Below, piece after piece: positions 40,489 through 53,388 of a DNA stretch of 54,795 nt (position 1 is its first letter; every line of letters begins with the position of its first letter). Origin of the DNA: Eubacterium sp. (GTDB lineage Bacteria > Bacillota > Clostridia > Lachnospirales > Lachnospiraceae); assembly GCA_017938215.1 (NCBI GenBank), contig JAGBBZ010000035.1:1-54795 (forward strand). The letters are read 5' to 3'. Below the pieces are notes generated by a model that saw only the letters and a program-made list of their open reading frames with translations, searched no databases and was not told the DNA's origin. The position numbers and the translations under genes are program-made.

Positions 40489-42387
40489 TCATCGATTCAC
40501 TCGCATGGCATTTAGGATTGCCAACACAGCTACTCCTACATCCGCAAATACCGCTGCCCACATCGTTGCTATGCCAAATGCACCAAGTATCAACACAAAT
40601 GCTTTTATGACTAGTGCAAAAACGATATTTTGTCGAACAATCAGCATCGTTTTTCTGGAAATCTGCATCATAGCGGCTAACTTCGAAATATCATCTTCCA
40701 TCAAAACCACGTCCGCCGCCTCAATGGCCGCATCGGATCCCATACTTCCCATAGCAATTCCGATATCAGCCCGAGTAATAACAGGAGCATCATTGATACC
40801 ATCCCCCGCAAATGCCACGTAATGTCCTTCTGCTTTCTGATTCATGAGCTGTTCCAATTTTGTCACCTTATCTTCCGGCAAAAGCTCCGTGTAGGCCTCA
40901 TCAATCCCAAGTTCCTTGGCAATGGCCTCACCAGTCTCCTTTTTATCTCCCGTCAGCATGACAAACTGTCTCACCCCAGCTTTACAGAGTTTCTGAAGTG
41001 CTTCCGGAACACCAGCTTTAATCTGATCTGATATAAAGATGCACCCGGCATAAACACCATCATAGCCCACATAAACTACTGTGCTCTTTTTATTTGCTTC
41101 TTCCTGCTCCTTTCCAAAGTTCGGTATCAAAATTCCGTTTTCTTCTAACAGACGCTTTGTTCCAGCATATGCTTTTTTCGTTTCGATTGTACCACAAATC
41201 CCATAACCTGCAATTTCTTCTACATCTGTAGCATCACACTTTTCCACACTTTCTTCACTTGCTTTCAAAATCGATTTCGCAATTGGATGTTCCGAATATC
41301 TCTCTAAACCAGCCGCAATCTCCAAGGGATTCAACCCATTTTCCTCGTAAATCTTAGCGACCTCAAATTCACCCTTTGTCAATGTTCCCGTCTTGTCAAA
41401 CACGATGGTTTCCACCTTAGATACCATTTCCAAAAAGTTACTTCCCTTCACAAGTATGCCACGTTTGGATGCGGCGCCAATTCCCCCGAAGAAGCTCAAT
41501 GGTACAGAAATCACCAAAGCACATGGACAGGAAATAACAAGAAAAATACAACCTCTTTGTAACCATTCACCAAATCCTCCCCCAAACACAATCGGTGGAA
41601 CAAAAGCAAGTAATGCAGCTGCAATTACAACAATTGGTGTGTAATATCTTGCAAACTTTGTAATGAAATTTTCCACCTTTGCCTTTCGAGTACTGGCATT
41701 TTCCACCAATTCCAATATTTTAGCCACGGTACAATCATCAAATTCCTTTGTCACTTGTACACGCAACACACCACTTCCATTGACACAGCCACTAATAATT
41801 TCGTCCCCTTCCTGCACTTTACGTGGTACGGATTCCCCAGTAAGCGCAACGGTATCCAAAAAGGAATTTCCTTCCAAAACAATACCATCCAACGGGACTT
41901 TCTCTCCTGGTTTTACCACAATAATATCTCCTGGAGCAATGTCATCCGGATCCACCTTTTGCACTTGTCCTTCCACTTCAAGATTTGCATACTCCGGACA
42001 AATATCCATGAGTTCGGTTATGGACTGACGAGAACGATTTACCGCATAATTCTGAAACAATTCCCCCACTTGATAAAACAACATAACAGCAACTGCTTCC
42101 GAATAATCTCCGATTCCAAAAGCCCCTACCGTTGCCAGACACATCAAAAAATTTTCATCAAACACTTGACCATGACCAATGTTAATCACTGCTTTTTTTA
42201 CAATATCTCCACCAATGATAACATATGGAATAAAATATGTGACAAATCGCAACATTTCCCCTTGCACGGTAGTGCCAAAAACTACCTCTTCATCTAACAT
42301 TCCGGTGTGAAATAAAACAAACAATATAAGAAAAATAGTGCCCGAAACAATAATTCGGTATAACATATTTTTTTGTTTTTTGGTCAT
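40489..42387 (-). CDS. heavy-metal P1B-type ATPase (Zn/Cd/Pb efflux)
   Basis: A 632-residue metal pump. The membrane metal site is SCPCALV (CPC). The phosphorylation motif is FDKTGTLTKGE, the actuator loop is ALTGESVPRKV, the ATP-binding HP dipeptide is in YSEHPIAKS, and the hinge is FAGDGINDAPVI. The last helix has FADVGVAVLAILNAMRVNR, with the aspartate typical of Zn/Cd (ZntA/CadA) rather than Cu pumps. It has no N-terminal HMA domain; that domain is a separate gene 21 bp upstream. Regulated with that gene and the ArsR repressor as a three-gene operon. Confidence 0.93.
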   Translation of the reverse strand: MTKKQKNMLYRIIVSGTIFLILFVLFHTGMLDEEVVFGTTVQGEMLRFVTYFIPYVIIGGDIVKKAVINIGHGQVFDENFLMCLATVGAFGIGDYSEAVAVMLFYQVGELFQNYAVNRSRQSITELMDICPEYANLEVEGQVQKVDPDDIAPGDIIVVKPGEKVPLDGIVLEGNSFLDTVALTGESVPRKVQEGDEIISGCVNGSGVLRVQVTKEFDDCTVAKILELVENASTRKAKVENFITKFARYYTPIVVIAAALLAFVPPIVFGGGFGEWLQRGCIFLVISCPCALVISVPLSFFGGIGAASKRGILVKGSNFLEMVSKVETIVFDKTGTLTKGEFEVAKIYEENGLNPLEIAAGLERYSEHPIAKSILKASEESVEKCDATDVEEIAGYGICGTIETKKAYAGTKRLLEENGILIPNFGKEQEEANKKSTVVYVGYDGVYAGCIFISDQIKAGVPEALQKLCKAGVRQFVMLTGDKKETGEAIAKELGIDEAYTELLPEDKVTKLEQLMNQKAEGHYVAFAGDGINDAPVITRADIGIAMGSMGSDAAIEAADVVLMEDDISKLAAMMQISRKTMLIVRQNIVFALVIKAFVLILGAFGIATMWAAVFADVGVAVLAILNAMRVNR

Positions 42388-42647: not shown

Positions 42648-42998
42648 TTATTCCATTATATGTTCCATTCCCTGACTGAGAATCGACATGACATGATGAT
42701 CCGCCAGAGAATAAATCATCGACTTTCCTTCTCTTCGATTCTTCACTAATTTGTTTTGCTTCAACACTCGAAGCTGGTGAGATATCGCGGATTGGTTCAT
42801 ATTTAATACATCTGCAATATCACACACGCACATTTCCGACTTCAGTAACAAATACATAATCTTGATTCGTGTGGAATCACCAAATATTTTGTACAAATCC
42901 GCCAATTCGTATAACAAATCTTCATCGGGCATATCCTCTTTCCACTGACTGACCATTTTCTCATGATCATGTGGCATATGACAACATTCTTCTGCCAT
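42648..42998 (-). CDS. ArsR/SmtB-family metal-sensing repressor
   Basis: A 116-residue winged-helix repressor. The N-terminus is metal-binding-like (EECCHMPHDHEKM), the CVCD motif matches the α3 CadC-type site (SEMCVCDIADVL), the recognition helix is MNQSAISHQLRVLKQNKLV, and the C-terminal α5 region has DHHVMSILSQGMEH with histidines at zinc-site spacing. CadC/ZiaR-like control of the HMA and ATPase genes is expected. Two ATGs are adjacent (42998 and 43001); 42998 has the better spacing to AGGAGG. The operator is at 43032-43057. Confidence 0.9.
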   Translation of the reverse strand: MAEECCHMPHDHEKMVSQWKEDMPDEDLLYELADLYKIFGDSTRIKIMYLLLKSEMCVCDIADVLNMNQSAISHQLRVLKQNKLVKNRREGKSMIYSLADHHVMSILSQGMEHIME

Positions 42999-43031
42999 CA
43001 TGGCCCCTCCTTTCGTACACCTTTGTTTCAA

Positions 43032-43057
43032 CACATGAACAACTATTCATATGTTCA
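43032..43057. promoter_or_regulatory. SmtB/CadC-type operator
   Basis: The core TGAACAACTATTCA (43036-43049) is a 6-2-6 imperfect inverted repeat closely resembling known ArsR/SmtB zinc operators, and a flanking ATGAACA/TGTTCAT pair extends it. It lies directly downstream of the -10 box. Confidence 0.75.
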
Positions 43058-43095: not shown

Positions 43096-43130
43096 AAAAA
43101 GGAAAAAGAGGAAGACAACGCTTCCTCCTT
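43096..43130 (-). terminator. terminator of the hydrogenase-chemoreceptor gene
   Basis: GAGGAAG (43108-43114) pairs with CTTCCTC (43121-43127) and the minus strand continues TTTTTCCTTTTT. It separates the gene from the metal-efflux operon. Confidence 0.8.
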
Positions 43131-43152
43131 TCTTGAAAACAGGATTTTTTTC

Positions 43153-45099
43153 CTATAAATCATTCAATTGTTCCAATTTCGCTTTCAACTTATCGGATGT
43201 CTCGCTGACCATGGTAGCCGATGCAGCAATCTCCTCTGTACTAGCCGCCAAATTACTAATACGAGTATTAACGTCATCCACAGTTCGAATCAATTGCTCC
43301 GACTCCTCCAAAAGGCGACTCATGGCAACAACAATTTCATTTTTATTGGAATTACTTTCTTGTGCTGTATCTTTACTGGACTCACTCAAATTCTTGATTT
43401 CATCCGCAACTACAGCAAATCCACGACCAGCCTCTCCAGCCCTTGCCGCCTCGATGGACGCATTCAACGAAAGAAGATTTGTCTGATTCGCCACATTCGT
43501 AATATTATTATTGTTCTCTTCCAGCTTCTCCAACAACTCATTAATAACTTTAAATGCTTCTTTCATATTGTCGCAGAACTGTACGACATCCGCCATATCA
43601 CTACTAATACTACTACTCTCTTCCGCATTGCCATTGTTTCCAGCCATCATTTCTGCAAGAGATGTATTAAGTGTCTCAAAATCTTCATTTGCTGCTTCGA
43701 TCATTTCTGTAATTACTACATTTTTATGTTCGATTTCCTTGCTCTTTTCTTCCATCTCCAAAGCAATTTCTCGTTCTTTCAGCTTCTCTTCCAAGATAAC
43801 ATCCTTCACATAATGAATGCAGTTATCACAATAATTGTTCCCATTGTGAATCGCCGTGGCCATATCTTTACAAGATTCATATCCACAGGAACCACAGTTA
43901 ATCTTTCTAGACTCGTCTGTTAATTTATGTAAGCGGTCAAAAATCGCATTCAATTCTGTCGCATCCGGACTCTGAATCGCACATCCAGAAGACTTATCTG
44001 TGTACTTTCTTACAAAATCCTTCAAATCCAATTTCTTGAACTGACGATTCAATGCTGCAAGTCGTTGTTTTGGACTACTCTTTTTCTGCCATGCACTACT
44101 TACTTTTGGATTTTTACTCGCCTCTTTGATTTTTTGAATCTCATACAATATATCTTCATTCTGTGTCTTTTCTTCCTCGATACCTGTCCCATAAATACAC
44201 CCCTGGGAACAATTCAAGGCATCTACCATAAAAGGCAATTCTTTTCGTCCCTGCACGCGTTGGCAATAATCTTCCAAGAAATGGTATACATGTTTTTCCC
44301 CCTCAATCTGACGGATAAACAATTCCTCACCGCAGAACCAGTAAACGTTCTCTTTCAATCCACCTGGCATCGGGTAAATAGAGCCAAGACCATATTCCAC
44401 TTCATCGGATATCTCTTCTCCCATTACATCATTTTCTCGCACATACTCCATCAGATGTTCAAACGTCACATTGTAGGAAATATATCCTTCGGTATTTGGA
44501 TCTGAAATTTCAGCTTTTTTCGCAATACACGGACTGATAAACGCCAGCTTGTCCGTAATATTCATATATTTCTTTGCATATATAGCCGAGCACATCATCG
44601 GACTATGAACCGGAACCAACTTCGGAATCAATTCTGGTATATAATGCTCAATATAATTTACCACTGCTGGACATGGTTGCGAAATACCACCCTTAAAATT
44701 GTTTTTCGTAATGTAATTAATATATGCCCATGTGGTAATATCCGCTCCAAAACTTACACTAATAATACGGTTTACTCCTAACTTCTTCAACCCACCCAAA
44801 ATTCGTTTGTACTCATCCGGATAGTTTGCCGCAAAAGCCGGTGCCAGCAAGATTGAAATCTTTTCACCCTTTTCCAAGTCTTGAAAAAATTCTTCGGTAT
44901 CATCATAAAAACTTCTCGCTCCATGTTCACACGCATCAAAGCAAGCACCACAACCAATACAATTCTCTGAATTTACATGAATCACTGTTTTCCCATTCTC
45001 TTCCACCGCTGTATTCGCTGTAATAACCGGACATACTGAAATACATTTGTTACACCCAATACAATTGTCATTGGTATACACCAACCCCTGTTTCGCCAT
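43153..45099 (-). CDS. [FeFe]-hydrogenase-like sensor fused to methyl-accepting chemotaxis signalling domain
   Basis: A 648-residue soluble fusion. Two [4Fe-4S] ferredoxin motifs come first (C13, C16, C19, C23; C47, C50, C53, C57). The H-cluster domain (about 60-310) keeps all four ligand cysteines: C143 in SQPCP, C191 in [10 protein letters not shown]297 and C301 in NCSQGC. The proton-relay cysteine before C143 (TSCCP in catalytic enzymes) is proline P142, as expected for a sensor. A third cluster domain has C402, C405, C410 and C424/C427. A coiled coil and an MCP domain follow, with its CheA/CheW tip in [19 protein letters not shown] (538-556). No membrane helix or HAMP is present. It likely links H2 or redox state to motility (inference). 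AAGGAGG precedes the ATG at 45099. Confidence 0.9.
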
Positions 45100-45125
45100 A
45101 CAATCAACCTCCTTGTTATATCATC

Positions 45126-45235
45126 GAGTAGCCGGATTCCTACTCAATTTCGCACACGAACATTCCGCACGATCGTGCTCCATGGTCTTACGCCCGGCAA
45201 ATACCGTTTTGTGCAAGCAAAATGGTGCCTGCCAA
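45126..45235 (-). other. structured segment upstream of the hydrogenase-chemoreceptor gene
   Basis: Three inverted repeats lie within 110 nt just before the ribosome binding site: 45126-45145 (GAGTAG/CTACTC), the perfect 12-bp palindrome GCACGATCGTGC at 45167-45178, and about 45196-45233 (GGCA...TGCC with CCGTTTTG/CAAAATGG). It could be an mRNA leader, an intergenic repeat, or a regulator binding region. No riboswitch class is recognised. Confidence 0.4.
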
Positions 45236-45245
45236 GCTTGTACTA

Positions 45246-45282
45246 CAAAAAACAACCTTCGCCCATTCAAGCAAAGGTTGTT
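45246..45282 (-). terminator. terminator after the nuclease-like gene
   Basis: ACAACCTT (45252-45259) and AAGGTTGT (45274-45281) form a perfect stem and the minus strand continues TTTTTTG. Confidence 0.8.
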
Positions 45283-45361
45283 TCTTATTCTCCTGACAAA
45301 GAACACATCTAATTGATAAAATTATATCACATTCTCTTTGTCTTTTCAACTAAAACTGACA

Positions 45362-51403: not shown

Positions 51404-53388
51404 TCATTGTGATATCAATTTTAAAATATTCTGTGGCTGTTGATTGGCATTGGCAATCATGGATTGCGACGCCTGCTCTAGTATCGTGATTCGAGCAAGA
51501 TTCATGGCCTCTTCTGCCATATCCAAGTCTCGCAAAATACTTTCGGAATTCTGCGTATTTTCTGCTGTATTGGCATTTACTCTCATGGCATATTCAAATC
51601 GATTCTGATATGCTCCAAACAAACTTCGCTGGGCAGATATCATATCCGTCGCCACATCAACTTCTGTAATTGCCTTGGACGCATCCTCCCTTGTCAATAC
51701 ATTGGTATCTCCCACTCCAAGATTTATGGTACGCAAGGAATCGTATGACATAGTGATGATTTGCTGACCATTGGCTCCTGCCTGAATGATACGTTCCACT
51801 GTGGCCTTGTATATCGGCACGTCGATGGGGTTATTTCTGGCACTGGAAGCATGTATACTATGCGTTGACGTCTGCGCTTTCCCCGAACTTTCATACCCTT
51901 GATACCCATCAAGAATGGTATTTTCATTTAAAGTCGCTTTCACACGATTCATCAAGGTCGCCTCTGTATCATCATCATATACTTGAATATTAATGTACAG
52001 AGAACCAACACCTGTTATCTGTCTTCCCTCATACTTTGCCTTATCTGCCTCCGTAGCTGTAAGATCAAAACGCAATGTAATGACACCGCCACTTTCCGCA
52101 TTATCCGTCAATGAAACACCTTTTTTTCCATTGCTTCCCAATTTATTTCCACGATTGGTGATGACATCTGTAATGCTATGAAGTGTTCCTGCATTCCCCA
52201 CACTTGGCGAATAGGAGTTCGCCGTCTTGTAACTGTTCTCTCCCCTTGAGTTCTTTACCCAATGCCACCAATGCCCCTCATCATCCTCATCTCGATCATG
52301 AGACTTAAAACTGACATTCGCCGATTTCGCTACAACTGTTCCTATATTTTGCATTTCAAATTCCAACGTCCATCCTGCATCCTCTGTGGGATCCGTATAC
52401 GACGGTGCACTTACAACATTAGATCCATTGGTCAACTTCGGCTGAATCCAATCTGTATCATACGCTTCCATGTCGCGATCACTGGCAAGTTCCGACAGAT
52501 AATTGATTTGAAGTTCATAGCTCACTCCCGGAACAGAGGTATTGGATTTGAGATATTCTGACGCACTAATTCCCACTGAAAAATTAATCCCGTTGATCGA
52601 ATTTGCCACATCATCCACAGTGGCAGACTCATGCCAATTAAATCCAATCTGATAACCAATTCCTTCTAATTCCGGATGCGTCGCTGTATCCACATAATCC
52701 TTAATATTAAATCCATAGGATTGGTTCGTTCCCACTCCTACATCATCCCAAGATATCATCTCTGTGGAATATTGCTTCGTATTCCACCCCTCCCATTTAA
52801 CAATAAAACCGTAATTCGCGGCATCATCCGGATTCGTTCCTTTTACTTCGATTTTATAACCATTGTAAGCAATGGCGCCTTTATTCGTATTTGTAACAGT
52901 AAAACTTGAATAGGACGTTCTCATATCCACTGCTTGCTTTTTCTCCGTGCCTATCTGCACGCGTCCTTCTCCCGTGGTATCCCAGATCATTTTATTATTA
53001 AACTCAGTTTCCTCAAAAATCCGATCCAACTCGTCTTTTAATATCTGTACTTCCTCATCAATGTACATTCGATCCTGCTCGGTATTTACATCATTGGCAG
53101 ACTGTATCGCCAATTCGCGCATACGATGCAAGATATCATGCGCGTTGCTCAACGCACCATCCGCCACTTGCACATAACTGATACCGTCCTGTACATTATC
53201 CTCTGCACGCTGCAAACCACGAATCTGCGCTCGCATTTTTTCTGAAATGGAAAGCGACGCTGCGTCATCCGCTGCCCGATTAATCCGATAGCCACTACCG
53301 AGGCGTTCCATGGACTTCATTTTTTTTTAGTATTTTCAATACTCATTCGTGTGGCTGTCATCGCCGCTAAGTGGTGCTGTATTACCAT
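51404..53388 (-). CDS. large flagellin, N-terminus out of frame at an A9 tract
   Basis: The continuous frame begins at 53320 (MKSMERLGSGYRINRAADDA). The σ28 promoter, an ideal GGAGG site and the ATG at 53388 open another frame reading MVIQHHLAAMTATRMSIENT, which hits TGA after an A9 tract (53320-53328). One extra A would give a 661-residue flagellin in which the GSGYRINRAADD block falls exactly where family members have it. Conserved helical ends (about 1-170 and the last 90 residues, ending IRDLDMAEEAMNLARITILE-like then QASQSMIANANQQ) flank a central variable domain of about 400 residues, longer than usual. It may be an error, phase variation or slippage. Confidence 0.85.

Follow-up and report, generated by a model that had tools for sequence, protein, structure and literature searches.

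The window analysed here, by which we mean the whole stretch of 54,795 nucleotides, carries on its reverse strand one intact open reading frame of 648 amino acids (43153..45099, ATG start), hereafter hydS-MCP, that joins a hydrogenase-like module to a chemoreceptor signalling domain. A preliminary description of this DNA had read ferredoxin clusters, an H-domain, a further cluster domain and an MCP tip in a single frame, and the Pfam matches, each above its curated cut-off, fall in exactly that order: two ferredoxin-type [4Fe-4S] sites (Fer4, amino acids 7-61, 44917..45081; C13 C16 C19 C23 and C47 C50 C53 C57), the H-domain (PF02906, Fe_hyd_lg_C, E 2e-32; amino acids 81-304, 44188..44859), an FeS domain (PF04060, E 1e-6; amino acids 399-428, 43816..43905; C402-x2-C405-x4-C410-x16-C427) and the MCP signalling domain (PF00015, MCPsignal, E 3e-24; amino acids 506-645, 43165..43584), all on the reverse strand. 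No HAMP or PAS model matched the protein in the Pfam search, and the NCBIfam models for catalytic hydrogenases scored far under their cut-offs. The protein had also been called soluble, in agreement with its hydropathy profile, which gave no membrane span (best 19-residue window 1.16; three membrane receptors encoded in the same genome reach 2.6-2.9). Against solved structures (60 of 70 matches listed), the N-terminal part matched hydrogenases and other ferredoxin-type proteins and the C-terminal part chemoreceptors, and none of the listed structures matched the whole chain.

The gene is preceded by a ribosome-binding site (AAGGAGG, 45114-45108, reverse strand) and, further upstream, by a promoter-like TTGAAA-17-TATAAT with a TG extension (45321..45349, reverse strand; 11/12, a consensus match only), and is followed by a terminator-like hairpin (43103..43132, reverse strand; also a consensus match only). 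It is probably a transcription unit of its own. Its 219-nt leader folds far more strongly than shuffled sequences (z -5.0), and the segment just 5' of the gene (45114-45254, reverse strand) gives an end-to-end but weak match to the Rfam Clostridiales-1 RNA (21.8 bits against a cut-off of 48, E 0.22); a search for a conserved leader RNA by blastn against 97 other upstream regions returned 0 matches. A hairpin with a T tail (45245-45283, reverse strand) lies downstream of the best promoter-like site and ahead of the hydS-MCP start, and may mark where an upstream unit ends or act as an attenuator in the leader. Immediately 3' of hydS-MCP, on the same strand, stand an ArsR/SmtB regulator (42648-43034) and a heavy-metal P-type ATPase (40489-42387), predicted to be an ordinary metal-efflux pair, and a flagellin gene at 51404-53320 (reverse strand) fits a motile organism.

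Within its receptor part the protein has the hairpin tip residue E556 (43432..43434, reverse strand) in a 16-residue tip motif recognised by sequence match, which we take to be the region of contact with CheA and CheW. Sixty-six residues past the tip lies a 10-residue stretch (amino acids 618-627, 43219..43248, reverse strand) that presumably corresponds to the chemoreceptor methylation consensus, a match to consensus only. Soluble chemoreceptors likewise show a conserved hairpin tip, a methylation consensus and co-occurrence with CheA; the window protein differs from them in its input, a multi-cluster hydrogenase module, and in an arm that is shorter past the tip. That arm measures 92 residues. 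Six other receptors of the same genome gave a tip match; in four of them the arm is 154-161 residues long, and in the three of these four where the methylation consensus was recognised it stands at +101 to +115, versus +66 in the window protein. The +66 offset is common to 58 of the 91 tip-matched proteins (122 sensor proteins examined). A receptor of this kind should be out of register with longer receptors in one array, which would favour a separate cytoplasmic array.

Residues of the module were counted over 131 distinct sensor modules, with five truncated modules and one duplicate excluded. All eight Fer4 cysteines and all four cysteines of the PF04060 domain are present in 131/131, and the four H-cluster cysteines, which in the window protein are C143, C191, C297 and C301, are all kept in 130/131. 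The alignment bears out both these ligands and the proline (P142) that had been noted at the proton-relay position (C299 of CpI), a site held by proline in 127/131 modules. At the M353 and M497 sites the window protein has S189 and L295 (Ser 125, Thr 3 and Gly 3 at the first; Leu in 128/131 at the second), and the sites of E252 and E289 of the Thermoanaerobacter mathranii HydS (TamHydS) are L248 and D293 (Leu in 125/131, Asp in 128/131). The residues that, by alignment and CpI numbering, presumably face the [2Fe] site are retained, namely P190 in 130/131, K194 in 126/131 and P167 in 131/131 modules. Since these pocket residues are kept and the C299 and E252/E289 sites are replaced, the H-cluster pocket is conserved and both known proton paths are lost. 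The original reading of a sensor rather than a turnover enzyme holds. Of HydDB group C, about 10% is reported to have proline at the Cys299 site (PMC10055695), a fraction that is probably the clade of the window protein. In the Thermotoga maritima enzyme (TmHydS) Cys299 is replaced by Ala131 (PMC10055695). One GGDEF-EAL member of the family (L194:1849-4467) has Ser at the C297 site and has also lost the Pro and Glu of L2, with its remaining cluster cysteines intact; it offers a natural test case for a sensor without an H-cluster.

A hydrogenase-linked chemoreceptor is already listed, though nearly uncharacterised, as HydDB C2, 'Chemotactic (putative)', a class defined by similarity network and linked regulatory genes, for which H2 sensing is proposed and no mechanism is given in the excerpt (PMC5037454). 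The earlier assignment to chemotaxis-linked group C agrees with C2 in that an H-domain is likewise tied to a methyl-accepting chemotaxis protein (PMC5037454); in the tree the clade lies apart from PAS-type group C. In the window protein the MCP is fused and Pro replaces Cys299, and its clade adds kinase, GGDEF, GGDEF-EAL and HD-GYP outputs. The PAS-type group C HydS of T. maritima and R. albus likewise have two N-terminal clusters, an H-domain and a C-terminal Cx2Cx4Cx16C cluster motif (PMC8163306). Unlike them, the window protein lacks a PAS domain, and where TmHydS has Gly and Ser at the M353 and M497 sites it has Ser and Leu (PMC8163306). TamHydS (group D, M2e) resembles it in lacking PAS and in its residues at the M353 (Ser) and M497 (Leu) sites (PMC8163306); however, the proton-path residues E252 and E289 of TamHydS (PMC10407848) are Leu and Asp in the window protein, and TamHydS has no fused output. 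Membership of group D, which the Ser/Leu pocket might suggest, was rejected because proton path and tree disagree with it.

The tree (IQ-TREE) held 67 rows, 42 of them from the clade of the window protein; groups C and D were represented by proxies, 8 and 10 unnamed rows respectively, picked on sequence length and similarity, together with the named R. albus and Monoglobus HydS; PAS presence or absence was checked by Pfam in two proxies of each group, and T. maritima HydS and T. mathranii HydS were absent from the rows. The 42 rows form one side of a branch of length 2.0 supported at 100/100. Ten PAS-type group C rows, including R. albus HydS, form a separate clade (100/99), and the ten architecture-defined group D proxies without PAS, TamHydS not being among them, form a third (100/100) with the window protein outside. 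The best tree unites C and D at 63/10, and joining the window clade with C (p-AU 0.48) or with D (p-AU 0.36) is also compatible with the data. On these sequences, the module forms a clade of its own, set apart from PAS-type group C to the same degree as group D.

The host assembly, 68% complete and in 40 contigs, contains four PF02906 genes: two of catalytic type, hydS-MCP, and a hydS-MCP paralogue on contig 18 that has the full-length architecture and is 60-61% identical to the window protein. The same full-length architecture is shared by 54 aligned relatives, at 54-70% identity in 44 and 32-42% in ten. A scan of named genomes returned at least 583 relatives. The best 80 loci of these are mostly labelled Lachnospiraceae or its genera, with a few other MAG labels, and the named relatives of the host genome belong to the Lachnospiraceae, gut and rumen being the source of many. 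Outside this family, the cultured and named species Acetoanaerobium noterae (NZ_CP154629) also has the protein, in a version of 631 residues (L186:7992-9887), and has HydG encoded on the same replicon. No conserved operon partner of hydS was seen, the commonest neighbour family occurring in 18 of 91 loci.

A further finding was that the output joined to this module changes. Among 81 sensor ORFs in the best 80 of at least 583 loci, 64 fit the tip pattern of MCPs, a further 8 fit a variant MCP pattern, 5 have an HD-GYP domain, and 4 are cut short; output classes were assigned by Pfam for a subset of proteins and by sequence pattern for the rest, and two of the five directly fused HD-GYP domains, recognised by motif, were also found by Pfam. 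Pfam further identified an MCP with a receiver (REC) in L202, hybrid kinases of HisKA-HATPase-REC type in L053, L058, L195, L198, L199 and L201, the same with an extra Hpt in L048, L059 and L196, and HisKA-REC-Hpt with HATPase unmatched in L191. In L050 and L060 dCache-HisKA-HATPase-REC precedes the module and Hpt follows it, with a second HisKA match besides; GGDEF is the output in L055 and GGDEF-EAL in L192, L193 and L194, again by Pfam. The HD-GYP fusions form one clade (100/98), sister to the MCP type of the paralogue at 100/100, and four kinase-type proteins form another (100/100), kinase output as a whole needing three changes on the tree. Descent of the fused HD-GYP from that of the che cluster was considered and found unsupported (31% identity, versus 49% to the response regulator with HD domain, RR-HD, beside the kinase form of G008). 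In 10 of 13 fusions with both coordinates the output begins 12-42 residues past the C-terminal cluster domain (about 185 residues in L055, L199 and L201), which would place that domain at the joint of signal transmission. Given that MCP is exchanged for c-di-GMP enzymes and kinases, the hydrogenase-like module is best seen as a putative general-purpose sensor. Regulatory [NiFe] hydrogenases of groups 2b and 2c have their outputs linked, not fused as in hydS-MCP, and are unrelated to it in metal centre and protein. They likewise represent hydrogenases driving a kinase or a diguanylate cyclase (HydDB table, PMC5037454).

The tie of the module to chemotaxis was evaluated in 298 genomes of the family, mostly one per genus and at least 90% complete except the host genome; module carriers (best E <= 1e-50; 60/298) were compiled by hand, and all statistics ignore kinship. 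CheA was found in 58 of 60 carriers versus 94 of 238 non-carriers (Fisher p 1e-17, kinship ignored), and the two carriers without it (G102 and G129) have kinase outputs in all three modules listed for them. The preliminary description had asked for chemotaxis and motility machinery, and the host genome does have two CheA, with cheW in both clusters. One CheA lies within a flagellar cluster (flhB, flhA, flhF-like, YcgR-like with PilZ, cheB, cheA, cheW, cheD), and the paralogue is divergent to a second che cluster (kinase, RR-HD (HD_5), cheR, cheB, cheY, cheA, cheW, MCP). In G005, hydS-MCP leads the signalling genes of a run on one strand that has RR-HD, cheR, cheB, cheA, cheW and MCP by BLAST, and a kinase and cheY by inspection; gap, pgk and tpi (by eye) stand directly before it, and G004 resembles G005 in its che genes.

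We therefore hypothesize, from the pocket kept, the CheA tie, hydG/hydF and che-cluster adjacency in relatives, and output swapping, that the window protein is a soluble chemoreceptor that informs CheA of H2 or low-potential electron pressure in the cytoplasm and that probably has c-di-GMP as a second output, and we regard this as reasonably probable. The hydrogenase-like module (two ferredoxin clusters, H-domain and C-terminal [4Fe-4S]) would take the place of a ligand-binding domain and report H2 or electron pressure in the cytoplasm; a conformational change would pass through the C-terminal cluster domain to the receptor coiled coil, which would set CheA activity via CheW. In the host the outlet could be the flagellar CheA, the second CheA beside the paralogue, whose cluster has an HD-GYP response regulator, or both. 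Domains, ligands, conserved tip, methylation consensus and near-complete co-occurrence with CheA can be read from the sequences themselves; from that co-occurrence we infer that the protein controls CheA. A complete H-cluster would be built in it, hydF and hydG being present, and the signal would be H2 or electron pressure and not another ligand, the sign of the response being equally conjectural.

The output in the host may instead be a non-flagellar chemosensory pathway ending in HD-GYP regulators, through which the sensor would set c-di-GMP and thereby attachment or motility braking. The position of the paralogue, divergent to the che cluster with RR-HD_5, is in line with this, as are the enrichment of the module with a second CheA (at least two CheA in 26 of 58 CheA-bearing carriers versus 9 of 94 CheA-bearing non-carriers, p 9e-7, kinship ignored), the HD-GYP fusions in 5 of the best 80 of at least 583 loci, joined at 100/100 to the MCP type of the paralogue, RR-HD genes adjoining hydS in L043, L045, L051, L052 and L058, and the YcgR-like PilZ gene inside the flagellar cluster. 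Nevertheless, no che gene adjoins the window copy, CheA occurs singly in 32 of the 58 carriers that have it, and hydS and CheA lie within about 10 kb only in the host, G004 and G005 among the matches listed for 61 close relatives. We consider this version possible and somewhat doubtful. Steering by H2 or redox state, as first proposed, thus survives in part: H2 is less secure as the signal, and steering is not the sole likely output in view of the HD-GYP, GGDEF-EAL and kinase fusions.

The reason for caution about H2 lies in the maturases. The host genome has hydF and hydG, as the preliminary description would expect, whereas hydE was not found over cut-off in the assembly, which is 68% complete. 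Among the 298 family genomes HydG is over cut-off in 133, namely 27 of 60 module carriers and 106 of 238 non-carriers (p = 1, kinship ignored); the presence of the sensor is thus unrelated to HydG, which makes H2 a less certain signal than was earlier assumed. The four nearest modules of other genomes in this sample (G083, G350, G323 and G109; 69-79% identity) come from HydG-less hosts that are 95-100% complete, and in a 61-genome sample six of seven carriers outside the genus lack HydE, HydF and HydG over cut-off. Together with the hydE not found in the host assembly, these are the points that count against the chemoreceptor for H2 or electron pressure. In other genomes, at 3 of the best 80 of at least 583 loci (L080, L117 and L147), hydG and hydF are found no more than 1.1 kb from hydS-MCP and share its strand. 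In L080 hydS starts 17 bases beyond the hydF end, in G002 the match to hydG begins 31 bases beyond the hydS stop, and in G040 hydE, hydG and hydF stand behind a GGDEF form on one strand.

These observations bring up a second alternative, that the H-domain is a hydrogenase relic with [4Fe-4S] only, serving as an H2-blind redox sensor for reduced ferredoxin or O2. It is consistent with the missing HydG association (27/60 versus 106/238), with nearest modules in HydG-less genomes, with Pro for the proton-relay residue in 127/131, and with the GGDEF-EAL protein L194, which is minus one H-cluster cysteine and otherwise intact in its cluster cysteines. Moreover, the HydEFG-less carriers G054 and G055, and one of the two copies of G041, have a catalytic-type hydrogenase with TSCSP, that is, Ser for the second L1 cysteine. 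However, the four H-cluster cysteines in 130/131 and the pocket lysine in 126/131 modules speak against a relic, as do hydG and hydF adjoining the sensor gene in several genomes. Nor is HydG absence confined to the sensor: of 24 order-level relatives, ten (G038, G039, G041, G048, G051, G053, G054, G055, G057 and G060) gave no HydE, HydF or HydG over cut-off and yet have a full-size hydrogenase of catalytic type (E <= 1e-88). The L2 and L3 motifs are intact in all ten, and six, one of them a single-contig genome, keep TSCCP at L1; G051, G054 and G055 have TSCSP, with Ser for one ligand Cys, and G041 one copy with TSCSP and one with TNCCP (the TSCSP loci are L153 in G055, L157 in G054, L159 in G041 and L163 in G051). 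Likewise, the HydG-less carrier G231 has a gene 53% identical to the group B-like hydrogenase of the host genome, and the 1.87 Mb read of G231 gave no HydE or HydG hits, while its sole match to HydF covers 159 residues of a GTPase domain at 25% identity. As catalytic-type hydrogenases also occur without HydEFG, HydEFG was discarded as uninformative for a working H-cluster; HydG is a poor H-cluster marker in these bacteria, and the maturase test does not decide between H2 and redox. We judge the relic rather improbable, a shade below the c-di-GMP pathway, and keep to the chemoreceptor for H2 or electron pressure.

It has been reported that TmHydS and TamHydS keep slow H2 turnover (PMC8163306, PMC10055695), and the H-domain could accordingly be a slow working hydrogenase, with turnover as its purpose and the MCP part merely locating it. 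This seems very unlikely, since the proton-path residues of group A (Cys299) and of group D (E252 and E289) are replaced by P142, L248 and D293, tip and methylation motif are conserved, and a separate group A- or B-like hydrogenase is present in 7 of 7 carriers outside the genus and 28 of 28 inside it (61-genome sample, hand count). Finally, that a hydrogenase gene and a separate MCP gene were fused during assembly or sequencing, a danger raised at the outset, can be practically dismissed: homologues of full length occur in many independent genomes, that of Acetoanaerobium noterae among them, the same genome has the paralogue, and base composition is even over the hydrogenase/MCP junction (0.391 and 0.399). 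Overall, what the preliminary description observed has been confirmed, and its interpretation is partly supported.

Beyond the single protein, we tentatively suggest, as a conjecture less likely than the chemoreceptor itself, that the clade is a further major H-domain branch, a general cytoplasmic redox/H2 sensor plugged into chemotaxis, kinases and c-di-GMP enzymes by gut Firmicutes and working HydEFG-free in about half of its hosts, whether by a novel way of acquiring the H-cluster or as an Fe-S switch blind to H2. Direct physiological evidence for putative sensory [FeFe] hydrogenases is described as little (PMC8924675, excerpt). Among the matches listed, from a literature search outside which most subscription journals lay, neither fused c-di-GMP outputs nor a characterised [FeFe] chemoreceptor appeared; within that literature, the clade, the output swapping, the tie to CheA but not to HydG and the c-di-GMP link are new. 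The fusions, which suggest that the signal is passed on at the C-terminal cluster domain, make GGDEF, HisKA or HD-GYP domains 12-42 residues past the module directly assayable read-outs for H2 signalling, in the form of diguanylate cyclase, kinase or phosphodiesterase activity. The lack of a HydG tie raises the question whether proteins of this kind acquire an H-cluster at all, and by what means. If true, control of movement and c-di-GMP by H2 or electron pressure would tie gut hydrogen cross-feeding to where Lachnospiraceae swim and settle.

Some minor observations deserve mention. Two hydS-MCP types stand in same-strand tandem in L049, L062, L141 and G013:C13, the second type being about 35-37% identical to the window protein, and they are possibly paired sensors with differing set points. 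In L052, gap, pgk and tpi (by eye) precede a second-type hydS-MCP on the same strand, with a che cluster after it. An HD-GYP-like gene lies directly 3' of the group B-like hydrogenase both on host contig 39 (L002:1-1274) and in G231 (L245:12177-13160), a second hint of c-di-GMP control near H2 metabolism.
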